This document shows, piece by piece, positions 44,333 through 48,749 of a stretch of 64,000 nt of DNA. Numbering within the stretch: position 1 is the stretch's first letter; each line of letters opens with the position of its first letter. The notes beneath the pieces are model-generated. The model was not told where the DNA came from. It made no database searches and saw only the letters and a list, made by a program, of their open reading frames with translations. The stretch comes from Tropicimonas sediminicola (lineage in GTDB: Bacteria; Pseudomonadota; Alphaproteobacteria; Rhodobacterales; Rhodobacteraceae): positions 124,001 to 188,000 of the forward strand of contig NZ_FZOY01000003.1 of NCBI RefSeq assembly GCF_900188335.1. The letters are read 5' to 3'. A program made the translations under genes and the position numbers.

Positions 44333-44677
44333 TCAGGCTGGATCGAGCCCGGCCTGTACCTTCTTCGGCAGGCTGGCGCGGATGATGCCGTAGGAGGTAC
44401 GAACGCGGTGCGCGGCTTCCTCCGCATCCACCGCGTCGAACGGCACCAGCACCCAGGAGCGGTGAAAATACGGCGCCTTCTCGAAGCGCCCGGTCTCGCG
44501 CAGCATCTCGGCGGTGGGCACGTCGGCGCATTTGACCGACACTCCGCGCCCCTCGGCACCGAGCGCGGCAAAGATCTTGCCGCCGACCTTCCAGATGTCG
44601 TGCCCCGGCCCGAAGGGCTCGGATACGTCCGCGCCCGGCAGGCCGGCGCAGAGGGCGTTGATCGAGTCGCGGTCCAT
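44333..44677 (-). CDS. MmcQ/YjbR family DNA-binding protein
   Basis: 114 residues from the ATG at 44677. CyaY-like fold of the YjbR family: INALCAGLPGADVSEPFGPGHDIWKVGGKIFAALG, VSVKCADVPTAEMLRETGRFEKAPYFHRSWVLVPFDAV. E. coli YjbR and the mitomycin-cluster MmcQ are known by structure only; DNA binding is proposed. Convergent with the Zn-peptidase, and divergent from the ChaC gene with 130 bases between starts. Function remains open. Confidence 0.88.
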   Translation of the reverse strand: MDRDSINALCAGLPGADVSEPFGPGHDIWKVGGKIFAALGAEGRGVSVKCADVPTAEMLRETGRFEKAPYFHRSWVLVPFDAVDAEEAAHRVRTSYGIIRASLPKKVQAGLDPA

Positions 44678-45494: not shown

Positions 45495-45523
45495 TTGGCG
45501 CGGGCGGGGCTTGGCGGTAAGAA
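45495..45523 (+). promoter_or_regulatory. Predicted promoter of the cysS leader
   Basis: TTGGCG (45495-45500), a 17-base spacer and TAAGAA (45518-45523). The start codon of the Cys-rich leader peptide follows after seven bases, so the transcript may begin with the AUG itself. TGGCGG/CCGCCA (45512-45517 with 45526-45531) is an inverted repeat covering the -10 box and could be a repressor site. Confidence 0.5.
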
Positions 45524-45530
45524 AGCCGCC

Positions 45531-45575
45531 ATGAACCGTTGCAGCATCAACATCTGCATCTGCATTATCCGCTGA
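45531..45575 (+). CDS. Cysteine-rich leader peptide of cysS
   Basis: A 14-residue frame, MNRCSINICICIIR, with Cys at 4, 9 and 11 and five Ile. It starts with ATG at 45531, has no ribosome-binding site, and ends TGA at 45573-45575, 87 bases before cysS. The 21% Cys content upstream of the gene that charges tRNA-Cys is what a ribosome-sensing leader looks like. Leaderless leader peptides are known: the trpL transcript of Sinorhizobium meliloti starts at its AUG. Here the reading of scarce tRNA-Cys would stall the ribosome at codons 4-11. No peptide function is demonstrated. Confidence 0.6.
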   Translation: MNRCSINICICIIR

Positions 45576-45583
45576 CATCGTCA

Positions 45584-45655
45584 GGCGGGCCGGTTCCTTC
45601 ATTCCCTTTCCAGAGCGAAGTTGCTAGACCCGCCGGCGCCGCCCGGAACGAGAGG
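45584..45655 (+). promoter_or_regulatory. Possible RNA switch between leader peptide and cysS
   Basis: After the leader stop come alternative pairings: CTGAC-atc-GTCAG (45572-45584), GGCGGG (45584-45589) with CCCGCC (45629-45634), GTTCC with GGAAC (45645-45649), and CCTTTC (45605-45610) with GAGAGG (45650-45655), the cysS ribosome-binding site. The first overlaps the stop codon, so a ribosome stalled on the Cys codons would leave it free. There is no T-run, so the switch would act on translation and not as an intrinsic terminator. All pairings are by eye. Confidence 0.4.
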
Positions 45656-45662
45656 AATAGCC

Positions 45663-47051
45663 ATGGCCGAGATCAGGCTCTGGAACACCCGAACCCGCAG
45701 CAAGGAACTGCTGGTTCCGATCGACCCCGAGAACGTGCGGATGTATGTCTGCGGGCCGACGGTCTATGATCGCGCGCACATGGGCAATGCGCGGCCCGTG
45801 ATCGTCTTCGACGTGCTCTACCGGCTGCTTCGCCACGTCTACGGAGCGGATCACGTGACCTACGTGCGCAATTTCACCGACGTCGACGACAAGATCATAC
45901 GCCGCGCCGAGGAGAGCGGGCGGCCGATCGACGCGATCACCGAGGAAACCATCCGCTGGTATCACGAGGACATGGGCGCGCTTGGCGTGCTGGTGCCGAA
46001 CGAGGAGCCCCGCGCCACCGCCTATATCGGCGAGATGGTGGCGATGATCGAGGACCTGATCGCCAGGGGCTTTGCCTATGCGGCCGAGGGACATGTGCTG
46101 TTCGCTGTCGACAAGTACGACGAATACGGCGCGCTTTCCGGCCGGTCGGTCGACGACATGATCGCCGGCGCCCGGGTCGAGGTCGCGCCCTACAAGCGCA
46201 ACCCGATGGATTTCGTGCTCTGGAAGCCCTCCGACATGGACCAGCCGGGATGGGAAAGCCCCTGGGGCCGTGGCCGTCCGGGCTGGCACATCGAATGCTC
46301 GGCGATGAGCCATGCGCTGCTCGGCGAGAATTTCGACATCCACGGCGGCGGCAACGACCTGATGTTCCCTCACCACGAGAACGAGATCGCCCAGAGCCGC
46401 TGCGCCCACCCGGGCAGCGACTTCGCGAAGGTCTGGATGCACAACGAGATGCTGCAGGTCGAGGGCAAGAAGATGTCCAAGAGCCTGGGCAATTTCTTCA
46501 CCGTGCACGACGTGCTGGAACAGGGCATCCCCGGCGAGGTGATCCGCTTTGTCTATCTCTCGACGCATTACCGCAAGCCGATGGACTGGACGGCGGAAAA
46601 GGCGCGCAAGGCGGAGTCCACCTTGTTCGGTTGGGCTGCCGACATTGAGAATGTAAAGCAGAGCGCCGAGGTTCCCGAAGAACTCATTGAGTATTTGGCG
46701 GATGATCTTAACACTCCTGGCGCGATTTCGGTTCTTCACAAACTCTCGAAAGACGGGCGCCACTCGGAATTGAAATCGTCGCTCCTGCTATTGGGGCTTG
46801 ATCTGAAATTGGACCGTGGGTCAGCAAAAGCTCTCGAGATGATTGAACGCGGTTTGCAAAGCCGGCCGCTGATTGAAAAGCTCGTTGGCGAGTTGGCGCA
46901 GGCACGAAAAAATAAGGACTACGCTCGGGCTGACGCTTTGCGTGACGGCATGAACGCGGCTGGGGTCAGCCTGAGTTACGGCAAAGATGGTGACGTAACG
47001 TTCAAACTCGAAAGCGATTTCGATATGACCAAACTCGAGGCGTTATCGTGA
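45663..47051 (+). CDS. cysS: Cysteinyl-tRNA synthetase with compositionally distinct 3' third
   Basis: 462 residues from the ATG at 45663, after GAGAGGAATAGCC. Class I synthetase. Zinc Cys30 and HMGN (39-42, the HIGH motif) in [33 protein letters not shown] and [17 protein letters not shown] bind zinc and Cys; KMSKS is at 270-274. From about residue 320 (base 46620) to the stop, GC content drops from about 70% to about 45%, with rare A/T-ending codons, while the protein still reads as a normal anticodon-binding end ([26 protein letters not shown]). This suggests replacement of the 3' end by recombination. Confidence 0.94.
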
Positions 47052-47123: not shown

Positions 47124-48749
47124 ATGAGCAAGGAGCGGCTCTACCTGTTCGACACCACGCTGCGCGATGGCCAGCAGACGCAGGGCGTGCAGTTCAGCCT
47201 CGAGGAGAAGCACGAGATCGCGGCGATGCTGGACGGGCTCGGGATCGACTATATCGAGGGGGGCTGGCCGGGGGCGAACCCGACCGACAGCGAGTTTTTC
47301 GATGCGCCGCCGCAACTCGGGCACGCGACCTTCCTGGCCTTCGGCATGACCAAGCGGGCCGGGCGCTCGGCGGCCAATGACGAGGTGCTGGCCGGGGTCG
47401 TCAACGCGGGCACGCCGGCGGTCTGCCTTGTCGGCAAGAGCCACGATTTCCACGTCACCACCGCGCTCGGCGTGAGCCTGGAGGAGAACCTCGCGGCGAT
47501 TGCCGACAGCGTCTCGCACCTTGTCTCGCTCGGACGCGAGGCAATCTATGACGCGGAGCATTTCTTCGACGGCTACAAGGCCAACTCGGATTACGCGCTG
47601 GCCTGCCTGCAGGCGGCGCTGGAGGCCGGCGCCCGCTGGGTCGTGCTCTGCGACACCAACGGCGGCACCTTGCCCGCCGAGATCGGCGAGATCACCCGCG
47701 CGGTGATCGCGGCCGGGGTGCCCGGCGACCGGCTGGGCATCCACACCCACAACGACACCGGCAACGCTGTGGCGGGCACGCTGGCGGCGATCGACGCGGG
47801 CGCGCGGCAGATCCAGGGCACCCTGAACGGGCTGGGCGAGCGCTGCGGCAACGCCAACCTCGTCTCGCTGATCCCGACGCTGCTGCTCAAGGAACCCTAT
47901 GCCAGCCGCTACGAAACCGCGGTGACGCCGGAGGGGCTTGCGAGCCTCACCCGCGCCAGCCGGATGATGGACGACATCCTCAACCGGGTGCCGTTCCGTG
48001 GCGCGCCCTATGTCGGGGCCTCGGCCTTCGCCCACAAGGCCGGGCTGCATGCCTCGGCGATGCTCAAGGATCCCTCGACCTACGAACATGTCGACCCGTC
48101 GCTCGTCGGCAACGAGCGCATCATCCCGATGTCGAACCAGGCGGGACAGTCGAACCTGCGCAGGCGCCTCGAAGAGGCGGGGCTGGTGGTGGAGCCGGGC
48201 GATCCGGCGCTCGGGCGGATCCTGGATCTGGTCAAGGCGCGCGAGGCGGCCGGCTATTCCTACGACACGGCTCAGGCCAGTTTCGAGCTGCTGGCGCGGC
48301 GCGAACTGGGCCAGCTTCCGCGCTTCTTCACGATCGACCGGTACCGGGTGGTGGTGGAGCGCCGCAAGAACCGCTTCGGCGAGACGATCTCGCTGTCGGA
48401 GGCCGTCGTGGTGCTGTTCATCGGCGGCGAGAAACGGCTGTCGGTCTCGGAATCTCTCGACGAGACCGGCTCGGACCGAGGCCCGGTCAACGCGCTTTCC
48501 CGGGCGCTCGCCAAGGACCTCGGGCCGCTCCAGCCTTTTGTCGAGGACATGAAGCTGGTGGACTTCAAGGTGCGGATCACCAACGGTGGCACAGAGGCCG
48601 TGACCCGTGTCATCATCGACAGCGAGGACAGCTCCGGGCGGCACTGGTCGACGGTCGGGGTCTCGGCGAACATCGTCGATGCCTCCTTCGAGGCGCTGCT
48701 CGAGGCGATCCAGTGGAAACTGCTGCGGGACGGCGCGCCCGCGTCCTGA
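47124..48749 (+). CDS. cimA: (R)-citramalate synthase
   Basis: 541 residues from the ATG at 47124, behind AAGGGG. Joins pyruvate and acetyl-CoA to citramalate, a threonine-independent route to 2-oxobutyrate for isoleucine. TIM barrel about 1-280: YLFDTTLRDGQQTQGVQFS, WVVLCDTNGGTLPAEIGEI and RLGIHTHNDTGNAVAGTLAAI (metal-binding HxH). FAHKAGLHASAMLK, and a C-terminal LeuA regulatory domain (about 400-541). Length and ETISLSEAVV block fit CimA, although DUF/2-isopropylmalate synthase-like relatives exist. 72 bases after cysS. Confidence 0.93.
   Translation: MSKERLYLFDTTLRDGQQTQGVQFSLEEKHEIAAMLDGLGIDYIEGGWPGANPTDSEFFDAPPQLGHATFLAFGMTKRAGRSAANDEVLAGVVNAGTPAVCLVGKSHDFHVTTALGVSLEENLAAIADSVSHLVSLGREAIYDAEHFFDGYKANSDYALACLQAALEAGARWVVLCDTNGGTLPAEIGEITRAVIAAGVPGDRLGIHTHNDTGNAVAGTLAAIDAGARQIQGTLNGLGERCGNANLVSLIPTLLLKEPYASRYETAVTPEGLASLTRASRMMDDILNRVPFRGAPYVGASAFAHKAGLHASAMLKDPSTYEHVDPSLVGNERIIPMSNQAGQSNLRRRLEEAGLVVEPGDPALGRILDLVKAREAAGYSYDTAQASFELLARRELGQLPRFFTIDRYRVVVERRKNRFGETISLSEAVVVLFIGGEKRLSVSESLDETGSDRGPVNALSRALAKDLGPLQPFVEDMKLVDFKVRITNGGTEAVTRVIIDSEDSSGRHWSTVGVSANIVDASFEALLEAIQWKLLRDGAPAS

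Follow-up and report, generated by a model that had tools for sequence, protein, structure and literature searches.

A candidate leaderless attenuator, rich in Cys and Ile codons, ahead of the cysS-cimA operon of Rhodobacteraceae

Introduction

Attenuation by short leader peptides is a classical way of adjusting amino acid metabolism. In Escherichia coli, the trpL leader has 14 residues and carries its control codons (WW) at positions -5 and -4 (codons are numbered here backwards from the stop). The trp terminator is formed by segments 3:4, and stalling acts through the 2:3 antiterminator. A leader for two amino acids, Thr and Ile, is thrL of the same organism. Leaderless short ORFs of the polycysteine type, reportedly described in mycobacteria by Canestrari et al. 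2020, are said to release a ribosome site translationally when the ribosome stalls on them; we know of no Ile codons in these ORFs.

Among Alphaproteobacteria, trpL of Sinorhizobium meliloti is an attenuator leader peptide, and a function in trans has also been reported for its peptide (PMC7298713). Cys leader peptides have been described in Actinobacteria (PMC1262725). The closest system is uORFC-8-2 (RNA Biol 2021, PMC8632094), which the main text of that paper presents as an attenuator based on Cys codons that occurs exclusively upstream of cysS in Rhodobacterales, with 145 unique examples. Its authors proposed ribosome-mediated attenuation with an intrinsic terminator and a U run at the 3′ end (PMC8632094).

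The leader element considered here, from Tropicimonas sediminicola, is the uORFC-8-2 motif described in the main text of PMC8632094. A preliminary description of this DNA had suggested that the element may be new, an idea superseded by its publication in 2021 (PMC8632094). In the following, its conservation, codon composition, synteny, promoter geometry and predicted hairpins are described as they are read from the DNA.

The Leader and Its Surroundings in the Window

The window, i.e., the whole stretch of 64,000 nucleotides analysed, is part of a 5.17-Mb draft genome. Its features around cysS are listed below.

45495-45523, forward strand: leader promoter P_A, TTGGCG-17-TAAGAA, with the -35 box at 45495-45500, the -10 box at 45518-45523 and 7 nt from there to the AUG
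45531-45575, forward strand: leader ORF MNRCSINICICIIR, 14 codons, rich in Cys and Ile codons, leaderless by geometry
45568-45589, forward strand: proposed terminator hairpin T, UCCGCUGAC-AUC-GUCA-G-GCGGG, its 5′ arm made of codons -2 and -1, the stop and the next base, its 3′ arm common to P1
45584-45634, forward strand: stem P1, GGCGGGC (45584-45590) with G45627 and CCCGCC (45629-45634), an alternative partner for the 3′ arm of T
45590-45609, forward strand: pyrimidine- and U-rich tract after T, the presumed termination zone, T-rich across 123 loci
45602-45630, forward strand: putative internal cysS promoter P_B, TTCCCT-17-TAGACC, its GC-rich discriminator overlapping the 3′ arm of P1
45650-45656, forward strand: cysS ribosome site GAGAGGA
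45663-47051, forward strand: cysS, cysteinyl-tRNA synthetase (TIGR00435, 461 bits; PF01406)
47124-48749, forward strand: cimA, citramalate synthase, threonine-independent route to isoleucine (TIGR00977, 592 bits), 72 nt after cysS

A script check of the window letters gave MNRCSINICICIIR as the translation of 45531-45575, from ATG to TGA. The same check found all coordinates of the preliminary description correct (the ORF, TTGGCG, TAAGAA, CCTTTC at 45605-45610, GAGAGG at 45650-45655 and the cysS ATG at 45663), together with the 87 nt between the leader stop and the cysS ATG and the overlap of CTGAC/GTCAG with the stop. That description overlooked the Ile codons of the leader and the presence of cimA downstream of cysS. 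The last Cys codons of the window's leader form C-I-C at codons -6, -5, and -4 and are not in tandem.

Both strands of the window hold 168 ATG-started ORFs of 10-20 codons; two contain at least three Cys, and the leader ORF alone combines at least three Cys with at least three Ile. Windows simulated by a first-order Markov model (30 in all) contained on average 1.17 ORFs with at least three Cys and none with at least three Cys plus at least three Ile. An ORF with three Cys is therefore expected about once per 64 kb, and three Cys alone are near chance, as would suit an accidental Cys-rich frame in an intergenic stretch. What exceeds chance is the combination of Cys with Ile and, more than anything else, the conservation: the element is kept in hundreds of genomes, and the fetched loci preserve its start and stop codons, its codon content, and its geometry. 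An accidental frame is refuted by this conservation, and its probability is negligible.

The gene upstream of the leader is ChaC-like (PF04752), and it had been considered a part of the system as a further supplier of cysteine. Of the 60 cysS loci fetched, the only one with a homologue (E<=1e-8) is that of the window itself; the link to ChaC is not conserved, and ChaC was discarded as a component. A MmcQ/YjbR-like gene at 44333-44677 on the minus strand has a homologue in 22 of the 60 fetched cysS loci. Over the last third of cysS (46450-47050), G+C is 0.53-0.56 versus 0.62-0.72 around it; recombination or relaxed constraint is possible there.

Conservation and Distribution

The cysS gene was present in 58 of 60 relatives searched, and in 25 of the 30 loci fetched through it a short ORF rich in Cys and Ile was detected upstream by script. 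Twenty leaders, out of these 25 picked at cysS loci for their Cys/Ile content, were used to build a covariance model, R1, so the loci found by R1 lean toward Cys/Ile-rich leaders. The genome searches with R1 were run under strict filters, and weak matches were lost.

The expectation that relatives carry a Cys-rich leader peptide at cysS was borne out, as R1 had matches in 231 of the 295 Rhodobacteraceae genomes sampled and Cys makes up 23% of the leader codons. In a sample of the order, 131 of 149 genomes were matched, all from the same family among the matches listed. A sample of the class gave 5 matches in 240 genomes, namely, three family members and two further genomes with E values of 0.004 and 0.009; the latter two, near threshold among the 237 genomes other than the three, are about what chance would give. 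Rfam had no family at gathering score at the locus, and two matches at relaxed E-value, both far below gathering score, were set aside.

Loci were fetched from 110 of the 231 matching genomes. With the 30 fetched by cysS itself, 140 loci were checked, and cysS was found in all of them. In a separate contig scan of 118 stretches among the matches listed, cysS lay just downstream in 110, seven were too short, and one (L157) was without it. The leader ORF was then chosen by a stem rule that considers the position of the stop beside a GCGG...CCGC stem and ignores composition; it returned an ORF in 131 of the 140 loci. Removal of eight loci whose genome was already represented and of nine without an ORF by this rule left the set of 123 loci used below. 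Four of the nine (L061, L063, L085, and L127) carry leaders that the rule missed. Another pattern, fixing codon -3 and parts of the neighbouring codons, yielded peptides that served as context only. When 31 unmatched genomes were re-examined through cysS, the gene was found in 29; several of these loci have diverged leaders, such as MARICIICIPLAR and MTTKVFTIYICIIG, and others have none.

Leader Promoter and Proposed Leaderless Start

When the 123 loci are aligned at the ATG of the leader, 97 show a TTG...TA promoter, and none was recognised in the other 26. The spacer is 17 nt in 81 of the 97, and the distance from the end of the -10 box to the ATG is 6-7 nt in 90 of them. Position -1 is C in 84% of the 123 loci. 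This spacing would place +1 on the A of the AUG, and the leader transcript may thus be leaderless, starting on its own AUG. The proposal of a leaderless start, made from the window only, agrees with the geometry across the family. The absence of a ribosome site for the leader was also confirmed: the anti-SD duplex energy upstream of the 123 leaders (median -2.5 kcal/mol) is no better than in shuffles (-3.1 kcal/mol), while cysS reaches a median of -5.9 kcal/mol.

Composition of the Leader Peptide

In the 123 leaders, which come from distinct genomes, Ile accounts for 31.3% and Cys for 23.0% of the post-start codons; the corresponding values in cysS are 4.8% and 1.2%. Among 1544 leader codons, 484 are for Ile, whereas Val, Leu, and Phe together reach 54, which indicates that the leader is not merely hydrophobic or AT-rich. 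Cys occurs in 122 of the 123 leaders, with 341 TGC and 14 TGT codons. L030 has the leader MNAPNRIIGIIIGG, with Ile and without Cys, and no U-rich tract follows its hairpin; with the U tract lost as well, it is probably a decaying attenuator and was not retained as an Ile-only leader.

The two residues differ in their distribution. Cys is concentrated at codons -5 and -4 (89 of 123 each), while Ile is spread along the peptide. Codons -5 to -3 read CCI in 60 leaders (the CC at about residues 9-11), CII in 27, and ICI in 22, so that the order shifts and the content is constant. These three codons are purely Cys/Ile in 112 of the 123 leaders (mean 18 in permuted peptides), and both residues are present among them in 116 (mean 44 in permuted peptides).

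Codon -3, at 45564-45566 in the window, is Ile in 121 of the 123 leaders and ATT in 118, whereas the cysS genes use ATC 1653 times and ATT 365 times. This preference against cysS usage hints at a constraint at the nucleotide level, and none of the predicted structures accounts for it. The last codon mostly keeps GC while the residue varies (TGC 60, CGC 29, and GGC 15), a constraint attributable to the 5′ arm of hairpin T, which covers codons -2 and -1.

Proposed Terminator Hairpin and Stem P1

In the window, hairpin T folds at -10.3 kcal/mol, with a z of only -0.89 for the 40-nt stretch; over the 123 loci, the mean z is -2.76, and 97.6% lie below -1. A stop-codon hairpin UGAC...GUCA of at least 4 bp is present in 73 of the 123 loci versus 5.1 in shuffles, its fourth pair being C-G in 66, G-C in 6, and A-T in 1. 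With codons -2 and -1 on one side and GCGGG on the other, this short stem is extended into T. The 12 nt that follow T contain 52% T, against 13% further on and 18% upstream, and pyrimidines occupy on average 9.1 of these positions. A hairpin with such a U-rich tract behind it is consistent with the intrinsic terminator that PMC8632094 proposed. A simple consensus terminator scan of the window called none at hairpin T, where the U tract is interrupted.

The effect of a ribosome on T was calculated position by position, and the amino acid content was not an input in this definition of the effective codons. The mean probability of T is 0.76 without a ribosome and 0.83-0.88 with the A site at -11 to -6; it is 0.42 at -5, 0.02 at -4 and -3, and 0 from -2 to the stop. 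A stall at codon -6 or earlier would leave T free, and the early Ile codons consequently need another explanation, e.g., timing. No antiterminator for such early stalls appeared in the scan.

The 3′ arm of T has a second potential partner, as GCGGGC is followed some 40 nt downstream by GCCCGC, with which it is predicted to form P1. The basal pair of P1 is kept in 91 of 122 loci, whereas shuffles gave 52.6 (maximum 67 in 2000). At three loci (L063, L127, and L285) the arms are changed, yet T and P1 both still fold. In a first alignment of 20 sequences, mostly close relatives, two-sided change was seen in 1 of 10 predicted pairs, and the consensus fold of this alignment had no stem over the Cys codons. 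P1 was rejected as a terminator, since no U run lies behind it. It was likewise rejected as a classical antiterminator, because its 3′ arm would appear only after the U tract has been transcribed; for the same reason, a later role seems more plausible.

The cysS Ribosome Site and a Putative Internal Promoter

According to the preliminary description, CCTTTC pairs with GAGAGG and thereby occludes the cysS ribosome site. The folding data give this little weight: pairing of the site with the pyrimidine tract exceeds 0.25 in 23 of 122 loci with P1 free and in 31 of 122 with the P1 arm masked, and sequestration by the tract was abandoned as an effect that is small and inconsistent across loci. The pyrimidine tract appears better explained as the U-rich tail of the terminator and, further on, as the -35 region of the internal promoter. 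When the 5′ arm of P1 is masked, the ribosome site becomes less accessible (mean 0.34 instead of 0.44; p 1e-10), with a decrease in 78% of the 122 loci. The accessibility is 0.42 for a ribosome at the stop codon and 0.44 for one stalled at -5 (p 0.08). By eye, a further small hairpin abuts the ribosome site in many loci (e.g., 45633-45648 in the window, L010, L056, and L075), and its 5′ arm overlaps the 3′ arm of P1 by a few bases.

The putative promoter P_B consists of GTTTCC-like and TTGCTAAG-like boxes situated in the loop and 3′ arm of P1 and spaced 14 nt apart in 80 of 107 scored loci. Its strict pattern occurs in 80 of the 135 loci with a leader (0.16 in shuffles) and, without a leader, in 7 of 12 loci with cimA (0.0 in shuffles) and 2 of 10 loci without cimA. 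P_B is likely an independent second promoter for cysS and is perhaps under stringent control. Boxes resembling P_B are kept in the leader-free loci L014, L259, L262, L263, L265, L272, L277, L261, and L274.

Linkage to cimA

On the same strand and within 760 nt downstream of cysS, cimA was found in 108 of the 110 loci with enough DNA; 30 more were too short. The two loci without it (L019 and L029) have no leader either. In the contig scan of the 118 stretches among the matches listed, cimA followed cysS in 76 of the 76 with enough DNA. Automatic scoring, with a false-positive rate for leaders of 8 in 3220 shuffles, assigned 112 loci to leader plus cimA, 1 to leader only, 16 to cimA only, and 10 to neither (Fisher p 1e-7, kinship ignored). 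The lone leader without cimA, MTCAPIACRA at L273, is an unconvincing match. In 12 loci, counted by the automatic rule less four loci set by hand, cysS-cimA occurs without a leader.

On the cysS tree, cimA linkage changed 5 times and the leader 15-18 times. The five independent contrasts had the leader moving in the same direction 3.2 times with automatic labels or 3.6 times with hand-set labels, and in the opposite direction 0.1 or 0.0 times; in the curated run, labels were assigned manually to L018, L030, L113, and L283 (leader) and to L273 (none). Once ancestry is taken into account through these five contrasts, the association of the leader with cimA falls short of significance (median p 0.25 automatic, 0.125 curated).

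Where cimA stands apart from cysS, in genomes G076 (L292) and G103 (L289), no leader was present in the 420 nt before cimA, and an Ile-only leader at a separate cimA was dismissed for these two. In G103 (L287, L289), the only cysS match is distant, with 41% identity, and lies away from cimA; in G087 (L279, L288), an additional and more distant copy of cysS (52%) has no leader. Whole-genome searches at E<=1e-60 gave no match to citramalate synthase in seven family genomes that lack the cysS-cimA linkage (G333, G349, G355, G399, G018, G078, and G181). These presumably obtain Ile in another way, and none of the seven has a convincing leader at cysS. In Roseobacter denitrificans grown on pyruvate, about 80% of isoleucine has been reported to arise via citramalate (PMC2749216).

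Proposed Mechanism and Alternatives

A ribosome-mediated transcription attenuator of the cysS-cimA operon, with a leaderless leader peptide that senses Cys-tRNA and probably Ile-tRNA, is the probable explanation of these observations. From sequence evidence, we infer the start site, termination, tRNA sensing, and the roles of Ile and P1. RNA polymerase would start on the A of the leader AUG, as the promoter geometry suggests. When charged tRNA is plentiful, the ribosome would complete the 14 codons and depart; codons -2 and -1 with the stop could then pair with GUCAgGCGGG to form hairpin T, and at the U-rich tract behind it the polymerase would terminate, with a transcript of presumably about 75-80 nt as the product. 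If charged tRNA for Cys or Ile runs short, the ribosome would be held on the Cys or Ile codons directly before the stop, its front edge would mask the 5′ arm of T, no terminator would form, and cysS and cimA would be transcribed. In the read-through RNA, the freed GCGGGCC arm could pair with the downstream GGCCCGC to give P1, which would block the terminator from re-forming and slightly expose the cysS ribosome site. The Cys codons would correspond to cysS and the Ile codons to cimA, while the second promoter between the attenuator and cysS would provide baseline expression. The balance tips slightly in favour of the wider statement that one leaderless 14-codon ORF reads both tRNAs and couples the Cys synthetase to the Ile-committing enzyme across Rhodobacteraceae.

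The main competitor is an attenuator for Cys alone, as put forward for uORFC-8-2 (PMC8632094), in which tandem Cys codons sense Cys-tRNA, Ile is filler, and cimA merely shares the operon. The Cys peak at -5/-4, where stalling weakens or abolishes T, the dispersed Ile, and the apparent nucleotide-level constraint on ATT at -3 are all in its favour. It is nevertheless considered a minor possibility, for Ile outnumbers Cys and represents nearly all the hydrophobic residues of the leader (484 versus 54 Val, Leu, and Phe), Ile stands at -3, inside the effective stalling range, in 121 of 123 leaders, cimA, behind cysS, encodes the entry enzyme of Ile synthesis, and among the loci scored no convincing leader occurs without cimA. 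Both this reading and the two-tRNA attenuator retain stalling on Cys codons as the switch, the part of the preliminary description that stood and that matches the published proposal (PMC8632094).

The other part, in which the stall frees the cysS ribosome site from the pyrimidine tract with no termination of transcription, fared less well. Such a translational switch would find a parallel in the mycobacterial polycysteine ORFs, which a passage citing them presents as a case of translation attenuation, and the fall in accessibility upon masking of the P1 arm also points that way. The size of that effect is small, however, pairing with the tract surpasses 0.25 in no more than 23-31 of the 122 loci, other functions of the tract are evident, and ribosomes at the stop and at -5 leave the site nearly equally accessible; a purely translational switch is thus unlikely. 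Still less probable, and hardly to be expected, is Rho-dependent attenuation, whereby the C/U-rich loop of P1 would load Rho when unshielded by the ribosome. This has been proposed for actinobacterial Cys leader peptides lacking a conserved terminator hairpin (PMC1262725), and the pyrimidine-rich stretch after the hairpin would suit it. Here, in contrast, a conserved hairpin directly precedes the tract, and the C-rich stretch, enclosed by stems, is short.

Significance and Comparison with Known Systems

In E. coli, excess cysteine causes isoleucine starvation by inhibiting enzymes of the threonine route, which would supply a physiological reason for coupling Cys to Ile. If the Ile half of the two-tRNA attenuator is true, the published Cys-tRNA sensor becomes a family-wide sensor that joins two amino acids through one short ORF. 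It would also mean that cimA, the main Ile gate in the one Roseobacter measured (PMC2749216), sits behind a tRNA synthetase, and it would suggest why cysS and cimA remain together.

The main text of PMC8632094 makes no mention of isoleucine, cimA, citramalate, or leaderless. In the literature searched, with most subscription papers outside it, the name uORFC-8-2 was not found beyond PMC8632094; a search on the Cys/Ile and cysS-cimA idea, covering mostly titles and abstract beginnings with subscription papers largely outside, found nothing else alike. Within this literature, the isoleucine input, the tie to cimA, the leaderless start, P1, and the internal promoter seem to be additions.

The element and uORFC-8-2, as given in the main text of PMC8632094, have in common a conserved AUG uORF upstream of cysS with UGC-dominated Cys codons. 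Tandem Cys is usually at peptide positions 14-15 in uORFC-8-2 and at about 9-11 here; two stems are described there, the first holding the Cys codons, whereas T and P1 are proposed here, and the figure of that paper may show P1 (PMC8632094). The mycobacterial polycysteine ORFs, going by the passage that cites them, share a leaderless Cys-rich short ORF before Cys-related genes and stalling as the sensor; they belong to another phylum and precede genes of Cys metabolism instead of the cysS-cimA pair. Unlike the trp system of E. coli, the 5′ arm of T lies within the last codons and would be covered directly by the ribosome, and the leader is leaderless by its geometry. The trpL leader of Sinorhizobium meliloti, leaderless according to the preliminary description, is devoted to Trp, and the present one to Cys and Ile.
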